Origin: Bdellovibrionales bacterium
GTDB lineage: Bacteria > Bdellovibrionota > Bdellovibrionia > Bdellovibrionales > UBA1609
Direction: 5' to 3'
NCBI GenBank assembly: GCA_013216195.1
Contig: JABSOQ010000022.1
Coordinates: forward strand, 1-35,945
Length of the DNA stretch: 35,945 bases
The position numbers and the translations under genes are program-made. Of this stretch, positions 1-35,755 are shown piece after piece. Under the pieces are notes generated by a model. The model saw nothing but the letters and a program-made list of their open reading frames with translations, was not told the origin of the DNA and searched no databases. The stretch's first letter is position 1. Each line of letters starts with the position of its first letter.

Positions 1-1125
1 ATCATTGAGATCAAAGCCCGGAGCAATAACTCGACCTGGTGAATTTAAATCTCCACCAAACATCATCATCACTCCACCTCTGCCGTGATCGGTGCCACCC
101 GTACCGTTCTCAGCCATAGTTCTACCAAATTCACTCATCACAAGAATCACAGTGTCGTTCCACTTGCCTTGTGATCTTAAATCATCTGCTGCTGCTCCAA
201 TCATTTTATCGAGACTCTTAACTCGGTCTCGGAAGGTTCCATTTAGAACACCCTGACTGAAGTGTGTGTCCCATCCGCCCATATTAACGTTTATGACTTT
301 GGGACCAAGATCAGAACAGGCCAATCGCACAGCTTCTCGCAACTCCTTGGCTGGATTGGAGGTGCCGTACTTGTCTGAATCTAAATCTGGCAACGAGTTG
401 AGATTGTCTTCTACGCGGTCAATATTTGAAGCCGTCTGTCTGGCATTGCCACACAGGTCTTTGCGGGTACCCGAGTAATTGCTGCAGGTGCCATCACTAC
501 CAACTGACATGCCTTCAACCCGCTCCGCCTTACTAATATTGGGGGTTACTGTTTGCCAAGCACCTCTTAGCTTAGAAAAGCTTTCGGGCTTCGTCATCGA
601 CACCGCTTTTGAACCAATGCCTCTCATTGATTTCACGACTCCCCCGCCAACGGAAACCATATCAAGACCTGATGCTGTACTGCTCAGGGCCCTATAAATA
701 TAGCCGTTGTCCGCGATCACATCCGACTTTCCACCCTCAATGATATCCATTTGAGTGAAGTGAGATCTCGTGTTGTTAAGGGAACCAGCACCGTGAGCCA
801 AGATCGCAAATGAGTTGTTAAAAAGGCCACGAATCCGAACAGCTTCTGGATGCAAACCGAAACCAGTGTTTCCTTTAAGGCCCAGCAGCTGATTCTTAGG
901 TATCTTCAAATTAGGCCTCGCAGCCGCATAAAGATTGTACTGAGCGGCCGACCTTGGCACCAATAGTGACAGGCCATCCATACCACCTCTCAAGAAAATT
1001 TTAATAAATGTCTTACCGCTTGCTGCTGCCATCGCTTGCTCACTAATCAACATTGGCACTGAGCTTAACCCTGCATAGCTAAGGGCAGTAATTGCTGAAT
1101 TTTGAAGAAATTTACGTCTTTTCAT
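1..1125 (-). CDS. DUF1501 family Tat-exported protein (3' end outside the window)
   Basis: The first 375 codons are open and run off the left edge. The N-terminus carries a twin-arginine signal (RRKFLQ at residues 3-8), a hydrophobic stretch and an AMAAA cleavage region near residue 35, so export by Tat is likely. Hallmarks of DUF1501 (a sulfatase/alkaline-phosphatase-like fold) are GGWDTH at 283-288, SEFGRT at 331-336 and GTDHG at 344-348, with GGMDGL at 47-52. The start is preceded by AGGGGA. It lies 12 bases after the DUF1800 gene, the usual partner of DUF1501 proteins, so the two are co-transcribed and probably act together outside the cytoplasm. The substrate of this family is unknown to me. 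Family call is firm; function is not. Confidence 0.9.
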   Translation of the reverse strand, partial: MKRRKFLQNSAITALSYAGLSSVPMLISEQAMAAASGKTFIKIFLRGGMDGLSLLVPRSAAQYNLYAAARPNLKIPKNQLLGLKGNTGFGLHPEAVRIRGLFNNSFAILAHGAGSLNNTRSHFTQMDIIEGGKSDVIADNGYIYRALSSTASGLDMVSVGGGVVKSMRGIGSKAVSMTKPESFSKLRGAWQTVTPNISKAERVEGMSVGSDGTCSNYSGTRKDLCGNARQTASNIDRVEDNLNSLPDLDSDKYGTSNPAKELREAVRLACSDLGPKVINVNMGGWDTHFSQGVLNGTFRDRVKSLDKMIGAAADDLRSQGKWNDTVILVMSEFGRTMAENGTGGTDHGRGGVMMMFGGDLNSPGRVIAPGFDLND

Positions 1126-1137
1126 TTTCAAGTTCCC

Positions 1138-2841
1138 CTATTTTCTAACAAAGTTATTGCTATTGAGAATTAGCGAGTTGATTGTTCTACCAGGTAAAGC
1201 GAGTCCAGAATTTTTATCTTTGTCTGGCCTTGCAAAAGCATCTCTGAGCAGGGGTCTGCCAGCTTCACTCCAGTAACCGACGGGCCTGGTCCTCAGTGAC
1301 AAAAACAAGTAGTCAGATACCGCATTGCCATTGCCTTCAGATTTGGCAATTGATGCAATCTTGCGCTCTTTACCATCTCCCCAAAAATTCTTGTCGTCCA
1401 ATCTCAAAGGCACTCTGTCATCGGCCATTTTGTAACCAAAGTTAGCCGCTTCAGCCTGGTAATTTGGGTTAATCCATGCGCGACCAACCACTGGGTAGCC
1501 TGTAGGAGGAGCCACTCGTCTAGGTGTCATACCCAAAGCCTGAACCGACCAATACAAATGCCGCAAGTGATTGTAGTCCTCTAAGCGGTTGATCGGGTAA
1601 CCCATTGCGCGGCTTCCACTGGCAACCAACTCTATTGGTGTTTTGACAGAGTTCTTTAAGTTAGAGCCACTCCAAAATCTCGGTCGAGTAAGCAGATACT
1701 TGTAGATCGCCACAAGGTCGCCATCTGTTCCCCACCTTGCTACACAGCCACTCACAATAGACGATGGTGGTTTATCGCCAAATAGCTCTGTTGAGAGTTT
1801 CGTGCAAATGTTCGTTTTCGTAAAAGCGCGATTTGCTAAGTCTTTCAATAAAGACATTCCACCGTTAAAACCGGCTGGGTGAGTCTTACCCATAATTTTA
1901 GGTCGCGCGGGATCGTGATTTTTTTCACGAAAAATAAACTTTGGCGCCTCTCCTTCATTCCTAGTGAATGTCCAGCCTGTTAAAAGCCTTGAAGCATCTG
2001 TCACAGTCTTTTGAGTGTAAGGGCTGTTCTTTTCAGCAGACGTCTTAGGCCCAATGCCGAGCGTGTAAAGCTCAAGCAGTTCTCTGCCGTAGTTCTCATT
2101 AATACTGCCACGTCTCGAACGGAAGTTATCTAAGTACCTCAACATTGCAGGATGAGTGGCACTAGTAACTAAAAGATCTAAGAAGGTGCCACACATTCTT
2201 GCCTGAAGCTGTCGCTCGTAGTGCATAGCATGGATGGGCACTTTGGTAGCGTCGACATTGAAATGATTGAACCAGAACTCTGTCATCATGGCATTCACGT
2301 TCATACTACCGCCCAATGCCTGACCAATCGCACCCATAGAGGCTGTTCTTCTAAGCTCATTAATGTACGGGTTTCTCGCTTTAGCTCTCTCTTGCCGATC
2401 GACGATTTTTGAAATGCGAATCATCTCGTCGTTCAATGCGCGATAGTTCATTCGGTATTTTGGCAAAAATTTTCTAATGTGATCAGTATGACCAGGACCA
2501 CCCATGTAGCCTAAATGACGCTCAACCTTATCTGCCAGAGCCCTTCTCGCCATCTGCGCACCAAACATCTCCTCCATTGCTGTGTAGTCTTGTGGTGTCG
2601 AATTTGAAGCTGGCACCTCTCCATAACCAAGTTTGTCATAAGCTATGACAGCCTGTTGACCGACTTCGGTACCCCATGAGTCTTTCATGGCTTTTTCTAA
2701 GTCTTTTTGAAAACCCAGAAACGCTGTTGAGCATGACTTAACTGGTCTCCAAACCTGTTGAGCGTTTGCATTACTAGCAAATCCCAAGCAAAGTGTCAGA
2801 GCAAGTGCTCCGCCGAGCCAACTTTTACCCTTAGTTTTCAT
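1138..2841 (-). CDS. DUF1800 family exported protein
   Basis: I start this 567-aa protein at the ATG at 2841, which has a perfect AGGAGG 5 bases upstream and gives a clean Sec signal peptide ending ASNANA; an upstream in-frame start at 2889 would bury that signal. DUF1800 motifs are FWFNHFNV near residues 189-196, ENYGRELLELYTLG near 249-262 and RLLTGWTF near 285-292, followed by HDPARPKIMGK. The gene overlaps the end of the preceding gene by 11 bases, implying translational coupling, and is followed by DUF1501. DUF1800 and DUF1501 are a well-known pair of exported proteins of unknown biochemistry. Length is in the usual family range. Confidence 0.9.
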   Translation of the reverse strand: MKTKGKSWLGGALALTLCLGFASNANAQQVWRPVKSCSTAFLGFQKDLEKAMKDSWGTEVGQQAVIAYDKLGYGEVPASNSTPQDYTAMEEMFGAQMARRALADKVERHLGYMGGPGHTDHIRKFLPKYRMNYRALNDEMIRISKIVDRQERAKARNPYINELRRTASMGAIGQALGGSMNVNAMMTEFWFNHFNVDATKVPIHAMHYERQLQARMCGTFLDLLVTSATHPAMLRYLDNFRSRRGSINENYGRELLELYTLGIGPKTSAEKNSPYTQKTVTDASRLLTGWTFTRNEGEAPKFIFREKNHDPARPKIMGKTHPAGFNGGMSLLKDLANRAFTKTNICTKLSTELFGDKPPSSIVSGCVARWGTDGDLVAIYKYLLTRPRFWSGSNLKNSVKTPIELVASGSRAMGYPINRLEDYNHLRHLYWSVQALGMTPRRVAPPTGYPVVGRAWINPNYQAEAANFGYKMADDRVPLRLDDKNFWGDGKERKIASIAKSEGNGNAVSDYLFLSLRTRPVGYWSEAGRPLLRDAFARPDKDKNSGLALPGRTINSLILNSNNFVRK

Positions 2842-3307
2842 ACCGACCTCCTTGTATCTCACCTTGACTCTCAAAATCATATTCACCATAAATCTCCATC
2901 ATCTCAGCATCGTCTTGCTTCTTGATAAAGTTCAAATAGGCACGATACTCGACAACATCTTTGTCCTCGATCCAGCCCTTCTCTAGAGCAGCAAGTACCT
3001 CTTCGTAATGGTCTTTTGTTTGGAATGCTTCTGGGTTGAGATCACCCGTCTGCGTGAACAAGTCTCGAGTACTCGCGACCGATGCCGGCTCACGCGAGTC
3101 AGCACTCGAGATGTCTACGAAGTCTTTATCTGAATTTAGATCTTGTTCCTCAACAGCTGACTGCTGCTGATCTTCGTTGAGAACTTCAAGAACTCTCAAC
3201 TCTGCTTGTCTAGCCTTGTCTTCATCACTGCCTGTGAAAGAAGAAGGCCCTAGGTATACGCTCGCGGCAATTGCTATTACCCCGCCCACTGCCAACCAAC
3301 GATTCAT
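2831..3307 (-). CDS. Membrane-anchored hypothetical protein, first gene of the DUF1800/DUF1501 operon
   Basis: This 158-aa protein has one N-terminal hydrophobic segment (about residues 4-20) and then a strongly acidic, Glu/Asp/Gln-rich tail, so it is probably anchored in the inner membrane with the tail in the periplasm. I recognise no domain. The start has a G-rich ribosome site directly upstream. Its 3' end overlaps the DUF1800 start by 11 bases, which ties it to that pair. It could be an assembly or anchoring partner for the two exported proteins, but that is inference from position only. Confidence 0.75.
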   Translation of the reverse strand: MNRWLAVGGVIAIAASVYLGPSSFTGSDEDKARQAELRVLEVLNEDQQQSAVEEQDLNSDKDFVDISSADSREPASVASTRDLFTQTGDLNPEAFQTKDHYEEVLAALEKGWIEDKDVVEYRAYLNFIKKQDDAEMMEIYGEYDFESQGEIQGGRYEN

Positions 3308-3360
3308 AATCCCCCCCGGGATACATCCTGTCTACTTTGCCTAGCCCTGTCAGCTGAGAA

Positions 3361-3376
3361 TGCACTGCAAGTGCCA
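3361..3376 (-). promoter_or_regulatory. Sigma-54 (RpoN) -24/-12 promoter
   Basis: Read on the minus strand the site is TGGCACTTGCAGTGCA. It has the full TGGCAC -24 box, TGCA at -12 and exactly 10 bases between the invariant GG and GC; it differs from the consensus TGGCACG-N4-TTGCA at two positions. The predicted start of transcription is near 3350, about 43 bases before the ATG at 3307, so it would drive the DUF1800/DUF1501 operon. Confidence 0.65.
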
Positions 3377-3404
3377 AATTGCGACAGTCATTTTGAGAAC
3401 CCAA

Positions 3405-3428
3405 AACTATTCATGTTTTCAAATAGTT
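3405..3428. promoter_or_regulatory. Inverted repeat upstream of the sigma-54 site, candidate activator site
   Basis: A perfect 7-base inverted repeat, AACTATT-N10-AATAGTT, sits about 55-78 bases upstream of the predicted start of transcription of the 3307 operon. Dyads in this position are typical of binding sites for sigma-54 enhancer-binding proteins. Role is inferred from position. Confidence 0.4.
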
Positions 3429-3570
3429 AGGAGTCTATGTTTGAAATTTGTTGCCGTCTGAGACCGTTCAAGATCTGTACAGCGGTCGAATAGTTGATCG
3501 GAGTTCACCAAAAAGATCGTCAACTGTCGTTATTGTGTAAATGTGATGGAGTTTTGATCACTGTGATGAA

Positions 3571-3602: not shown

Positions 3603-4007
3603 CTAGCTCTTTTGCTCTTCGGACTCGTCAGCTTCATTTTGGTCACCCACAGGCAAATCAGAGAATGACATCGACTTGAACTCCTGCCCGTCAAAATGAA
3701 CTACCCTACGCTCATTATCCATAACAGTTGCCACGTTGACTGGTCGCCCCCAGATCTTAGCCAGGTTCTTCATCGTCTCTTTCATAAAGTCTGGCTGCAT
3801 TTCGATACCTTCAAACAAGTGCGCCAATAAAAGCTCGCCTCTGTTATTGAAGTTCGCATCGATCACATTGATGATCGGCTGGCCAAAGTTTGTGAGCTGA
3901 AACAGAAATTTCTTTTTAATAAGCGGGAAGTCTCGAGTGTCGACTTCGTACTGCCCTGTCCGCTGGTTGAACTTGTAGACAAAACTCTTCGGTGAGAAAC
4001 TCATCAA
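3603..4007 (-). CDS. SpoVR family protein, C-terminal part (frameshifted)
   Basis: This frame encodes the missing C-terminal quarter of the SpoVR protein begun at 5136. Family-like sequence starts at about 3980 (VYKFNQRTG) and runs through QLTNFGQPIINVIDANFNNR and RGELLLAH to a short acidic tail. These blocks belong to the conserved end of SpoVR/YcgB proteins. The ATG codons at 4007 only exist because this frame overlaps the upstream one; no ribosome site supports independent initiation. Joined to residues 1-385 of the upstream frame, it would give about 510 aa, the length of E. coli YcgB. See the neighbouring entry for the lesion. Confidence 0.7.
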   Translation of the reverse strand: MMSFSPKSFVYKFNQRTGQYEVDTRDFPLIKKKFLFQLTNFGQPIINVIDANFNNRGELLLAHLFEGIEMQPDFMKETMKNLAKIWGRPVNVATVMDNERRVVHFDGQEFKSMSFSDLPVGDQNEADESEEQKS

Positions 4008-5136
4008 TAAAGGTCACATCATTGTAGTTGCGCCTCACTTCAAAGATCTTCTCGCGGCCCTTCATGAGTTTACGATCCCAGTTCTTTCGCTCTGCCAGGT
4101 CGTCGCACTCTTCCCACTCTTTGCCGAACTGACCCGTGTTCCAGCGACGCTCAATATCCCTCATCAACTCGATGCCGATCTTGTAGGGGTTAAAGCCTGT
4201 TGGCTCCATAGCCATAGTTCCGCTATGCCGATCGGCAAAATCAATGACCTCACTGTCGTTCATGATTTGTTCAGTCATGAGCTTTGAGTGCCAATAAGAA
4301 GCCCAGCCCTCATTCATGATCTTCGTCATCCCTTGAGGAGCGAAATAGTAGGCCTCTTCGCGAATAATCGAAACGACATCTTGCTGCCAAGGCTCCAATG
4401 GTGCGTACTCCATTAAAAACTTGAGAACATCGCGTTCAGGCTTCTCCGGGAATCTTCTGTTCTCCATCTGGTTCTCTAGCGCGGCCTTTTCTTGCTGCTC
4501 TCTGAGGTACTCAGGTGGATTAATAAAAGACTCCATGTACTCTTTGTGAACTTTCAGCTCGCCTGGCTTTCTGTTTGCCGACTGCTGTGAAAGATCAGCC
4601 TCTTGCGCTTCGTACTCAATTTTTGATTTACTATAAGGAGCATGGCGATCAATAAGGTTCTCAAGAGAAAGTACCACGTCGATGAAGTCTTCAACCACAT
4701 CTTTACCAAAGCGGTCCATGTACCTTCGCACGCGGGTCGCATGGTTGGCCATTTCATCCATCATTTTACGATTCGTCTGCGAGAACCACTGATTGTTCTT
4801 AAAAAAATCGCAGTGGCCAAACACGTGGGCCATAACAAGCTTTTGATCTATGAACTCGTTGCCTTCCATAAGGTAGGCGTAGCAAGGGTCGTTGTTAATC
4901 ACGAGCTCGTAAATCTTAGACAAGCCATAGTCGTAACCCTTTGAGATTGACTCATAGTCCATACCAAAACGCCAGTGAGGGTAACGAACTGGAAACCCTC
5001 CGTAGGCGGCGATCTGGTTGAGCTCTTTGTAGGTGACGAGTTCAAATATCGTATTGTAAAAATCAAGACCAACCTTATCGGCAATCTTCTCGATTTTTTG
5101 TCGTTCTACTTCAAGCTCAGGAGTCAAATTTGCCAT
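3916..5136 (-). CDS. SpoVR family protein, N-terminal part (frameshifted)
   Basis: Residues 1-386 match the SpoVR/YcgB family (stress or sporulation-associated cytoplasmic protein of unclear activity), ending in the conserved block NDVTFIDEFLTEEFC. After that the frame reads about 20 unrelated residues and stops, while the conserved C-terminus continues in another frame (3603-4007). The shift lies at a TTTT run, 3981-3984. The start overlaps the YeaH stop by one base (TAATG), and the order PrkA, YeaH, SpoVR is the standard arrangement. Either the gene is inactivated, it is read by frameshifting, or the sequence carries an error. Confidence 0.8.
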   Translation of the reverse strand: MANLTPELEVERQKIEKIADKVGLDFYNTIFELVTYKELNQIAAYGGFPVRYPHWRFGMDYESISKGYDYGLSKIYELVINNDPCYAYLMEGNEFIDQKLVMAHVFGHCDFFKNNQWFSQTNRKMMDEMANHATRVRRYMDRFGKDVVEDFIDVVLSLENLIDRHAPYSKSKIEYEAQEADLSQQSANRKPGELKVHKEYMESFINPPEYLREQQEKAALENQMENRRFPEKPERDVLKFLMEYAPLEPWQQDVVSIIREEAYYFAPQGMTKIMNEGWASYWHSKLMTEQIMNDSEVIDFADRHSGTMAMEPTGFNPYKIGIELMRDIERRWNTGQFGKEWEECDDLAERKNWDRKLMKGREKIFEVRRNYNDVTFIDEFLTEEFCLQVQPADRAVRSRHSRLPAY

Positions 5137-13192: not shown

Positions 13193-13293
13193 ACAGCTTT
13201 AGAATGCAGACTCGGTGCCACCCGGCAGGTTCACCAAACTGCTATCTCGTGGCTTTCGGTATTCAAGTGTTAGACTCTGTGTGAAGTCGCCAG

Positions 13294-23007: not shown

Positions 23008-23176
23008 TTACTCTCCTAAGGCCTTTGCCTATAAATAAGCAAAACCACTGCCAGTTTGACTGTTCTGAGGAGTCATTCTATTGAATCTCAGCTTCTTATC
23101 TCAGTTTGGAACGTCGACTCTTTTGACAGGCGTATTGCCGAAAATCAATGGTTAAACTCTGACTTTAAGGCTCTTG

Positions 23177-31459: not shown

Positions 31460-33451
31460 GTGAGATTGACAAGAACTTCGTCAATTGTGATCGCAATTGT
31501 AGGCTTCGCGACTTTGCTTGCGTTTCAAAACTGTGCGCCGGTAGGTACATCGAGCCAGATTGAAACAGCCTCTGTCGATGACCCAGTTAATGGTAACGAC
31601 GACGGCAGCAACGGTGGCAGCACAACCACACCACCACCGACCGATGATGAGACACCAGCTCCGGTAGTACCCGTGACTCCTCCTAATAATGATGATGAAG
31701 ACATGGGCCCTCCTGACGACTTCACTGGCTGTAACGAAACAAACCACCCAGAGCTTGATAACAACGACAGACCAGTGCTCCTTGGCTGGAGCACAGTGAG
31801 TGCTAATGACAATGCCTTCAATGGTTTTAGAACTGATTCGGCAAATACACAGTTGACTATTGGTATGGGCAACCGTCGATCTGGCGATTCTAACGCCGCT
31901 CGAATTTATTTAGGCATCCACCGAGGAAACGATCCTGATGTTCAAAACCACACTATTAGATGTCAAACCAATCAGACAAGAAACGATGGTAACGATGGAG
32001 CTCTGTTAGATACTGACTGCGGAGATCAGTTCACGGGCAACGACAGAACACATCCATCAGAGAGCCTTTCATTCACACAGGTGCAATTTGATATTCAGAG
32101 AGCACGAAACCTGATTTGCATGGGCGGAACGGCCACGATCACTATTACTATCCGAGACCAATGTAGCCGTAACAACACGAGCAGCCGTGAAATTGTTGTC
32201 AACGTTGGTGCTTTTGATGGCTGCCTTGCCGAAGAAAAACTGGTTCAAGACAACATTCAGTATGCCAACAATAACATGGGTAAAGACGTAGACATTGATG
32301 GTCGCTGGATCGCTGTTGCAGCACCTGAAGACGATGAAGCTGATCCAGGTGGAAACTCTGGTGCGGTACTTGTCTACAAAAGAAACGCCAATAACTCTGC
32401 TAACGTGGATCCAGCTTCGACTCAAAAGCTTTTGCCTACGGGTGCTGGTTTAAATAGCGCAAGACTTCAATCGGTAGCCCTGTCTGGCAACTATCTTATT
32501 GCTGGCGCACCAGCAGCAAATACCGCAGTCGGTGCGGCATGGCTCTACAAGAAAAATGGCAGCGATGTATGGCAAGCCGTCACAAGAATCGATCCGCCTA
32601 CTTCGGCCGTTGGTCAACGAACTCTTTTTGGCTATGACGTTGCTATCGATGGTAACACCTTTGTCGTTTCGGCCATCAGAGATGGCGAGCAAGGCGCTTT
32701 CGCTGGCGCAGCTTACGTCTACACTATCGACACTGCAGATGATTCAATTTCAACGCCAACTAAACTCACGGCTTCAGATGCGAAAGATAGAGACTACTTT
32801 GGTTACTCGGTAGCGATAGAAAACGGCAACGTAGTTGTTGGTGCCCCGGTAGCACCAGAAATCATTAGATCAATGAACAACGACAACACAATCACCCCTG
32901 CTGAAGATGGCGACGGCCAAGTCTATCACTATGCTGCAGGTTCTTACACCGAAACTCGGTTGTTTCCAGCTGGCCAGTCTCCAAACGGAAGTCAGCTCGG
33001 CTACTCAGTGGCTATTGACGGCAACCGCGTAGTTGCAGGTGCACCTCGAGATGACGGCAGCTCTTATGATGAAAACAGCCCAACTGGTGCCGCATTTGTG
33101 GTCAACATCTCGAACTTGAATAGCCCGTCTATTCAAGAGCTTGATGGCAGTGACGGGCGCTTCGGTGAAGCCGTTGCGATCAGTGGGACAAAAGTTCTTG
33201 TAACAGCACTCGACTTTGAAAATGGCCGAGGTACGGGTTCTTTGTTCGGCGACGTTTCATCTAGCTTAACTGACTATTTTGAAGTGCAAGCCAGAGATCA
33301 GCGTGACCGTGACGAACTTGGTATCTCTGCAGCAATTGATGAAGCCACTGGTGACTATGCTGTGCTCGGTGCATGGCTAGACACTGTAAGGCAAAACAAC
33401 CAGAACTGGGACAAAGCCGGTTCTGCTTATGTAGTTGAAACGAATCCATAA
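31460..33451 (+). CDS. FG-GAP beta-propeller lipoprotein
   Basis: 663 aa from a GTG with AGGGGGG upstream. The signal ends in FQNC at residues 22-25, a lipobox of the Bdellovibrio style. A Pro/Thr/Gly/Asp-rich linker (about 40-90) leads to a domain (about 90-250), then about seven FG-GAP-type repeats to the end (for example DVDIDGRWIAVAAPEDD, FGYDVAIDGNTFVVSA, LGYSVAIDGNRVVAGAP), which form an integrin-alpha-like propeller. It is likely an outer-membrane or surface protein binding another molecule. First gene of an operon with the LamG protein. Confidence 0.85.
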   Translation: MRLTRTSSIVIAIVGFATLLAFQNCAPVGTSSQIETASVDDPVNGNDDGSNGGSTTTPPPTDDETPAPVVPVTPPNNDDEDMGPPDDFTGCNETNHPELDNNDRPVLLGWSTVSANDNAFNGFRTDSANTQLTIGMGNRRSGDSNAARIYLGIHRGNDPDVQNHTIRCQTNQTRNDGNDGALLDTDCGDQFTGNDRTHPSESLSFTQVQFDIQRARNLICMGGTATITITIRDQCSRNNTSSREIVVNVGAFDGCLAEEKLVQDNIQYANNNMGKDVDIDGRWIAVAAPEDDEADPGGNSGAVLVYKRNANNSANVDPASTQKLLPTGAGLNSARLQSVALSGNYLIAGAPAANTAVGAAWLYKKNGSDVWQAVTRIDPPTSAVGQRTLFGYDVAIDGNTFVVSAIRDGEQGAFAGAAYVYTIDTADDSISTPTKLTASDAKDRDYFGYSVAIENGNVVVGAPVAPEIIRSMNNDNTITPAEDGDGQVYHYAAGSYTETRLFPAGQSPNGSQLGYSVAIDGNRVVAGAPRDDGSSYDENSPTGAAFVVNISNLNSPSIQELDGSDGRFGEAVAISGTKVLVTALDFENGRGTGSLFGDVSSSLTDYFEVQARDQRDRDELGISAAIDEATGDYAVLGAWLDTVRQNNQNWDKAGSAYVVETNP

Positions 33452-33475
33452 AGAGAAGTGGTGAGGGGAATAAAG

Positions 33476-35755
33476 ATGACATTTAAGTCCGTAGCTAAAA
33501 TCATCGTATCCATTTCTATGGTCTTTACGAGCTTCAACAGTCTCGCGCTAGAGGCTAATGGCGACAAAAAGACCTCGACTGGTACGCTCACTCATGGCTC
33601 GCCCGAGTGGCAAGCTGCTGTTGATGCTGAAGGCCTAGTAGCGCTCTACTTGTTTGAAAACACAAGTGGACCTGTTCTAGATCTTTCTGGTTACCGCAAT
33701 GATGAAGGCAATCTCGAGCCGCTTAACTTGGTTATTGATGACCCTGATGCTGGTACACCGGGCTCAAATCAAACTGAAGTCGTGCGCACAGGAAACTCTG
33801 TTCAACTTCGTCAAGCGGTTCTGATTCATTCACAAACAGCGGCAACGAAAATCATTCGTGAATGCAAAAGGTCTGGCGAGCTTTCGATCGAAGCTTGGGT
33901 TCGCAATGGTAACAACGCCATGAGAGAGAATCAGTTCCCGATGAGAAGAATCATGACTCTGTCTGCGCCTCGCAATAATGGCCCAGCACAAGAGAGGTTT
34001 TCTAGCTTCAATACAAACTTCTTCATGGCCTTTAACTACGATGAAGGTCCGACCTATAAGGCTTCATTCAGAACTTCTTCGAACTTGGAGCGGGCGACGA
34101 TTTCAACTCGTACAAGCGCACCTGATATTCCTGACCCAGATGCCAACAAAGCTAACGGTAGGCTACAACACATTATTTTTACTAAGGGTTCTGACGGCGT
34201 AGCTAAAACCTTTGTCAGCTTTCACGATGACCGCGGCCAAATTATCGACAACGAGCACGATTCAGTGAGGCTCGATTCATTGACCTCAAACTTCAATAAC
34301 TGGGACGATAACGCAGTTTTCGGAATCGGTAACGAAATCTCTTATGACAACGATGCCGGTGCTATGATCATTCAAGATGCCGACGAGGGCACAGAAGAAG
34401 ATGTCACCACTGAAGACCTTGAGTACGAAGGTGAAATCGAAATGGTTGCAGTTTACTGTAAAGCCCTTCAGCCCTCTGATGTACTCGGTGACAAAGCTGG
34501 TGGTGATCCTCTTTATTCAAACTTCTCAGTTGATCCGAGCATGACCGTTAGCCCTGAGTACATCAAAGCAGGTCTGCTATATAAAAGACTGGCTGGTGTA
34601 TCAACATCTCTCGCCAACCCAATAATTGCTGATATGGCCACAGATATTGCCAATGGTGACCTTATGGCCGCTGCCGCACGGGTTACCGACACAAGTGATT
34701 TCTACAACATTACCGTTCGTGACTTCGCAGCTAAGATGTCAAACCGTGCCGAATCAGTAGATGTACCGCTCAATGACTTCATCGCCACCATCATTGGGGT
34801 AACTCGTGATGATATCAACGCCAAACAGCTTTTGACTGGCGATTACGTTTACGAGGGCGACCTTTCTAAGGCTTCAGTAGCTGGTAACCGCATTCAGCAC
34901 ATGATTCTATCTAACGACCACTATTCTGAGCTTGAAGAGAAACGCTTCGATCTCAAAGATGTCTTGGTTCAGTCTAAGCAGGTTCTTTACAACGGTATGG
35001 GACAAACTCAAGAGAACTTCGACTCTGCCGGTCTTCTGACCTCTAGAGCCTGGATGGAGGCTCACGCCTCAGCTGGTACAAACCGCAGACTTGTTGAATT
35101 CGCCTTCCGTGAATTCTTGTGCGTACCTATGGAGCAATGGGCTGACGCTGAAGCACCTGACAACTTTGTCGGCCGTGATATCGACCGCTTTCCAGCTGGT
35201 GATCACGCAAAATACAAAACGACATGCCGTTCGTGTCACTCTGTAATGGACTCACTCAGAGGAGCATATGCTTACTACGACTTTTCAAATAGCTTTGTAA
35301 AGTACGGCCCTCGCCTAACAAGAACCGATGATCCAGCTGCAGAGACTTCACCTACGACTATTAACCTTTACAGAGATGACGAGACCAACACAGACTACCC
35401 GACCGTCACTAAGATGAACCACAATGATCACACATTTCCTGATGGTCACATCACGCAAAACAACTACTTTAAGAACCAGGCCGTCTGGGGCGCTAACGGC
35501 AATTACTTCGGCTGGAATGGCGAGCTCGAGGGCTTTGGTGTGAATGCTTTTGGTAAAATGATTTCTGAATCCGAAGCCTTCCCATTCTGCATGGCCAAAC
35601 GTGTCTTCCGCTCTACCTGTAAGCGTGAGCCCGTAGCCATTGACAAGACTCTTATTGAAAATGCAGCAGAGCAATTTAAGGCCTCAAGTTACAACTTGAA
35701 GTCATTGTTTCAATCTATCGCCATCTCTGATGAGTGTCTCGGGGAGGAGCTATAA
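33476..35755 (+). CDS. Exported LamG-domain protein with a CxxCH haem motif
   Basis: 759 aa from the ATG at 33476, preceded by GAGGGGA; an in-frame upstream start at 33458 is less good. Signal peptide about residues 1-25. A LamG/concanavalin-like domain fills about residues 40-300 (VALYLFENTSGPVLDLSGY, SIEAWVRNGN). The C-terminal part has one CRSCH motif at 584-588, typical of c-type haem attachment and of the DUF1588/1592-type exported proteins that are often found with DUF1501 proteins. Its stop overlaps the next start by one base (TAATG). It may bind carbohydrate and carry a haem. Confidence 0.75.
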   Translation: MTFKSVAKIIVSISMVFTSFNSLALEANGDKKTSTGTLTHGSPEWQAAVDAEGLVALYLFENTSGPVLDLSGYRNDEGNLEPLNLVIDDPDAGTPGSNQTEVVRTGNSVQLRQAVLIHSQTAATKIIRECKRSGELSIEAWVRNGNNAMRENQFPMRRIMTLSAPRNNGPAQERFSSFNTNFFMAFNYDEGPTYKASFRTSSNLERATISTRTSAPDIPDPDANKANGRLQHIIFTKGSDGVAKTFVSFHDDRGQIIDNEHDSVRLDSLTSNFNNWDDNAVFGIGNEISYDNDAGAMIIQDADEGTEEDVTTEDLEYEGEIEMVAVYCKALQPSDVLGDKAGGDPLYSNFSVDPSMTVSPEYIKAGLLYKRLAGVSTSLANPIIADMATDIANGDLMAAAARVTDTSDFYNITVRDFAAKMSNRAESVDVPLNDFIATIIGVTRDDINAKQLLTGDYVYEGDLSKASVAGNRIQHMILSNDHYSELEEKRFDLKDVLVQSKQVLYNGMGQTQENFDSAGLLTSRAWMEAHASAGTNRRLVEFAFREFLCVPMEQWADAEAPDNFVGRDIDRFPAGDHAKYKTTCRSCHSVMDSLRGAYAYYDFSNSFVKYGPRLTRTDDPAAETSPTTINLYRDDETNTDYPTVTKMNHNDHTFPDGHITQNNYFKNQAVWGANGNYFGWNGELEGFGVNAFGKMISESEAFPFCMAKRVFRSTCKREPVAIDKTLIENAAEQFKASSYNLKSLFQSIAISDECLGEEL

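Follow-up and report, generated by a model that had tools for sequence, protein, structure and literature searches.

Analysis of a 35,945-nucleotide stretch of DNA from a Bdellovibrionales bacterium (the window) reveals a -24/-12 box that is very probably a working sigma-54 (RpoN) promoter, opened by an activator. The operon predicted to be transcribed from it comprises a 158-aa ORF, a DUF1800 gene, and a DUF1501 gene. This reading is favored by the exact spacing of the box, its 10/11 match to the consensus, the presence of rpoN and of activators in the genome, the genome-wide excess of such sites, their intergenic placing, and conservation of the box in an orthologous operon. The enrichment of signal-bearing first genes behind sigma-54 sites and a sigma-70-like match that reaches only chance level point in the same direction. 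Sigma-54 RNA polymerase would wait in a closed state on the -24/-12 element until a putative enhancer-binding protein opened the complex. Because the activator must open the promoter, the three exported proteins would be made only when this activator is switched on. The features of the window are listed in Table 1.

TABLE 1. Features of the promoter region, the operon, and related sites in the window
Feature	Position	Strand	Description
Sigma-54 (-24/-12) promoter TGGCACTTGCAGTGCA	3361..3376	minus	Motif match; conserved in L030/L031
Second sigma-54-like site TGGCACCGAGTCTGCA	13205..13220	minus	Precedes 115-aa membrane-anchored ORF
Third sigma-54-like site TGGCAGTGGTTTTGCT	23038..23053	minus	Precedes 212-aa membrane-anchored ORF
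Dyad AACTATT-N10-AATAGTT	3405..3428	.	Exact; center at about -67
GTCTCA half-site	3459..3464	minus	Weak alternative candidate for activator site; 88 bases upstream of box (about -114)
G7 run before ATG (ribosome-binding region)	3311..3317	minus	Can form small hairpin ATCCC-GGGG-GGGAT
158-aa leading ORF	2831..3307	minus	Single N-terminal membrane segment/signal anchor, acidic remainder
DUF1800 (PF08811) protein	1138..2889	minus	E 7e-78, 263.1 bits; predicted signal peptide
DUF1501 (PF07394) protein	1..1131, cut by window edge	minus	E 4e-27, 95.8 bits

The Operon and Its Surroundings

The original prediction had placed the promoter in front of a DUF1800/DUF1501 operon. Both domains were confirmed, in adjacent genes and above the Pfam cut-off, but the first gene of the operon is the unannotated 158-aa ORF. 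This leading ORF has no match in Pfam or NCBIfam and no sequence relative among 40 near genomes, and a scan of a named genome collection returned a sole match of 23 residues, which is uninformative. The leading ORF shares its last bases with the DUF1800 ORF, and the DUF1800 protein probably starts at an internal ATG near 2841. The N terminus of the DUF1501 protein contains a Tat-type signal, KRRKFL. No solved structure was found that resembles the DUF1800 or the DUF1501 protein by sequence.

A G7 run with a hairpin comparable to that before the leading ORF is also present in both orthologous operons described below (before 3590 in L030 and above 4329 in L031), where the hairpin differs in sequence (TCTCC-TGGGGG-GGAGA). 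Genome G113 carries a G6 run. The overall fold of the region around the hairpin in the window is no stronger than that of shuffled sequences.

Upstream lies a PrkA-DUF444-SpoVR operon of the same orientation, which ends near 3603. SpoVR is read in two frames (3603-4007 and 3916-5136), with the SpoVR domain in one ORF and SpoVR_C in the next. Either the genome itself or its assembly carries a frameshift here.

The -24/-12 Box and Its Genomic Context

The box agrees with TGGCACGN4TTGCW at 10/12 positions and with TGGCACN5TTGCW at 10/11 fixed positions, where the single mismatch is a G that replaces the first T of the -12 element. Both invariant doublets are retained, and the GG-N10-GC spacing is exact; the 10-of-12 match described in the original prediction was reproduced. 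The distance of 43 bases to the operon start given there is correct when counted to the ATG at 3307 from the predicted transcription start at about 3350; the gap between the box itself and this ATG is 53 bp.

The genome encodes rpoN (Sigma54_DBD match, E 1.7e-65), and about 11 strong matches to Sigma54_activat (PF00158) represent candidate activators on the basis of this AAA+ domain. The pattern TGGCACN6TGCW occurs 30 times genome-wide with zero mismatches, as compared with 7 times for a reversed control, and therefore about three in four of these sites exceed chance, placement aside; 25/30 are intergenic. When one mismatch at most is allowed in TGGCACN5TTGCW, 194 sites are found genome-wide; the reversed pattern gives 70.

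First genes behind sigma-54 sites encode a signal-like N terminus in 31/38 cases, whereas 60/109 of other first genes do so (p 0.004), as called by a simple hydrophobicity rule rather than a trained predictor. A first estimate of this enrichment (29/37 versus 46/123) was set aside because its background was unmatched; the matched first genes give a weaker but standing result. Genes behind GTCTCANNNTGAGAC, a palindrome largely unlinked to sigma-54 that is discussed below, are also often signal-bearing (30/42). By eye, several of the first genes behind sigma-54 sites resemble plain lipoproteins, and one resembles an amidase. The operon appears to belong to a sigma-54 regulon of several tens of units in which exported proteins and lipoproteins abound, and the fact that all products of the DUF1800/DUF1501 operon look exported fits such a regulon.

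One sigma-54-like site that precedes an exported protein lies next to a perfect 7-bp tandem repeat, TCAGTAA, which is present in 11.4 copies (L136:299-378, contig C45 of genome G000) and ends 22 bp upstream of the site. A change in copy number would alter how far an activator site lies from the promoter.

Conservation across the Phylum

A DUF1800 gene is present in 26/369 genomes of the phylum, and a close orthologue was found in only two of the 369, G235 and G236, which belong to the same order and another family. The identity to the orthologues in L030 is 45% for DUF1800 and 52% for DUF1501. The order of the operon is alike (a 158-aa ORF, DUF1800, and DUF1501), but the neighbors differ, as the orthologous operon sits behind ribonucleotide reductase genes. 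The leading ORFs are equal in length and layout, although their sequence similarity is not significant (E 0.61).

Both genomes carry the site TGGCAGGCTGYCTGCA, which ends 47 bp before the first ATG of the orthologous operon. It matches the consensus at 9/11 positions, with a G for C and a C for T, and is the only site of at least 9/11 in the upstream region of 267-268 bp. In shuffled sequences, the probability of such a site is 0.004-0.006 within -120 to -30 and 0.001-0.0015 within -75 to -55. The core 11 positions are identical between G235 and G236, whereas 38/268 intergenic columns differ. The test amounts to one independent comparison, between two close genomes and the source genome. According to the original prediction, a lack of conservation of the GG-N10-GC pair would speak against a sigma-54 promoter; the pair is kept across the family boundary. 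Of the two elements whose position in relatives the original prediction proposed to compare, the promoter motif is found at the matching position, but the dyad is absent.

No -24/-12 site was found before the more distant DUF1800/DUF1501 loci of the phylum, including those of G113, G303, and G206, in which a small membrane-anchored ORF precedes the two genes. The site is lacking there even though rpoN is present in 13/16 genomes checked for it, which makes the RpoN link a feature of this branch. The tie between the two families and RpoN that had been proposed therefore holds for this branch and not for the other loci of the phylum: judged from these upstream regions, RpoN control is predicted to belong to this branch and not to DUF1800/DUF1501 families in general. 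In G303 (locus L034), the small ORF, DUF1800, and DUF1501 are immediately preceded by a gene that looks TatA-like by eye, which is consistent with Tat export of DUF1501.

Alternative Explanations and the Activator Site

The -24/-12 match could be a coincidence, with transcription of the operon starting at a housekeeping promoter or continuing from the SpoVR operon upstream. We consider this unlikely. It is true that sites of at least 10/12 are no more common in the window than in shuffled sequences (7 versus 4.9 expected) and that about a quarter of the TGGCACN6TGCW sites in the genome (7/30) are expected by chance. Read-through is possible because no terminator was detected between the same-strand SpoVR operon and the DUF1800/DUF1501 operon. 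However, the box is intergenic, lies at the right distance from the gene, and is kept at the matching place in another family, whereas the sole sigma-70-like match near the operon overlaps the start codon and is at chance level. Three of the seven sites in the window retain both doublets, and all three directly precede minus-strand genes.

If the box is a sigma-54 promoter, its enhancer-binding protein could bind the dyad, as the original prediction had suggested. The dyad is indeed perfect as described, with exact 7-bp arms on the upstream side of the promoter, and short dyads with 5-bp arms are modestly in excess upstream of sigma-54 sites (138 versus 91). A perfect dyad with 7-bp arms and a spacer of 0-20 is, however, present in 12% of shuffled sequences of 100 bp and in 26% of those of 295 bp. 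With up to two mismatches, the dyad occurs at 8 places in the genome and at 24 in the reversed control, so there is no excess, and it is missing from the upstream regions of the orthologues in G235 and G236. Activator sites are usually situated at -80 to -150, and the center of the dyad is closer to the promoter. A role for it as the activator site is very unlikely, and its presence is probably due to chance.

A shared activator motif was also sought upstream of 37 intergenic sigma-54 sites using k-mers, gapped dyads, and positional clustering. The hexamer GTCTCA shows such clustering: 5/37 of these sites, that of the operon among them, have it at -93 to -86 relative to the box. It is a half-site of GTCTCANNNTGAGAC, and activation through it is conceivable but doubtful. 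Two sigma-54 sites have a full palindrome upstream, at distances of 79 and 92 bases, and the pattern TCTCANNNTGAGA, which describes the palindrome, occurs 46 times genome-wide as compared with 8 for the reversed pattern. On the other hand, some hexamer reached the same count as GTCTCA in 3/60 shuffle sets, the region upstream of the operon contains the half-site and no full GTCTCANNNTGAGAC, and GTCTCA is missing from the orthologous upstream regions (L030/L031). Moreover, a good sigma-54 site lies behind only 2/92 oriented palindromes, so that the regulator of GTCTCANNNTGAGAC would mostly serve promoters other than those of sigma-54; as a shared sigma-54 activator motif the palindrome was rejected for being largely unlinked. 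Its copies are nearly all intergenic and beside a gene start. From this distribution, GTCTCANNNTGAGAC is a genome-wide element of its own, with a predicted regulator whose large regulon would mostly not be linked to sigma-54. Examples in G000 are loci L205, L212, L216, L231, and L240, where the palindrome is near the middle of each locus.

Relation to Known Systems

Sigma-54 promoters follow the -24/-12 consensus TGGCACN5-7TTGCT (PMC12316311), from which the box of the operon departs by a single base, the G noted above in the -12 element. A further difference is that no activator site was found upstream of the box. The known promoters and the one described here agree in sequence and spacing, in how far they lie from the first gene, and in the presence of rpoN and activators. 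Sigma-54 control of the operon is a good prediction, and of a kind that is already known.

In the available portion of Francke et al. 2011 (PMC3162934), sigma-54 is presented as controlling the bacterial exterior. The sites of the source genome match this theme, because they mostly precede exported proteins and lipoproteins, and they extend it to a little-studied lineage. The emphasis in that portion is on precursor synthesis and transport, and it does not mention DUF1800 or DUF1501.

Pairs of DUF1800 and DUF1501 genes are known, for example adjoining bacterial chitin synthase genes (PMC5122149, as far as its text was available). Those pairs are likewise adjacent and co-directional, with a Tat signal on DUF1501. 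In contrast, the operon of the source genome is led by a small membrane-anchored ORF and has a predicted sigma-54 promoter, and no adjoining chitin synthase was seen. The available text of that paper contains no discussion of how the pairs are regulated. In the partly accessible literature that was searched, DUF1800 is seldom named, and no account of its regulation was found.

The DUF1800 and DUF1501 families, which usually occur as a pair, are unexplained. The conserved RpoN promoter offers a handle on the inducing signal and on co-regulated genes. Tentatively, the DUF1800/DUF1501 module and its small membrane-anchored leader might constitute a surface system that is under sigma-54 control in the order, with one dedicated activator that switches tens of other exported proteins as well. 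If this were true, the signal of the activator would reveal when the two families are needed. Two further adjacent genes on the plus strand of the window, at 31460-35752, form a second pair whose products are unexplained, one with FG-GAP repeats and the other a DUF1585 (PSD2) protein.
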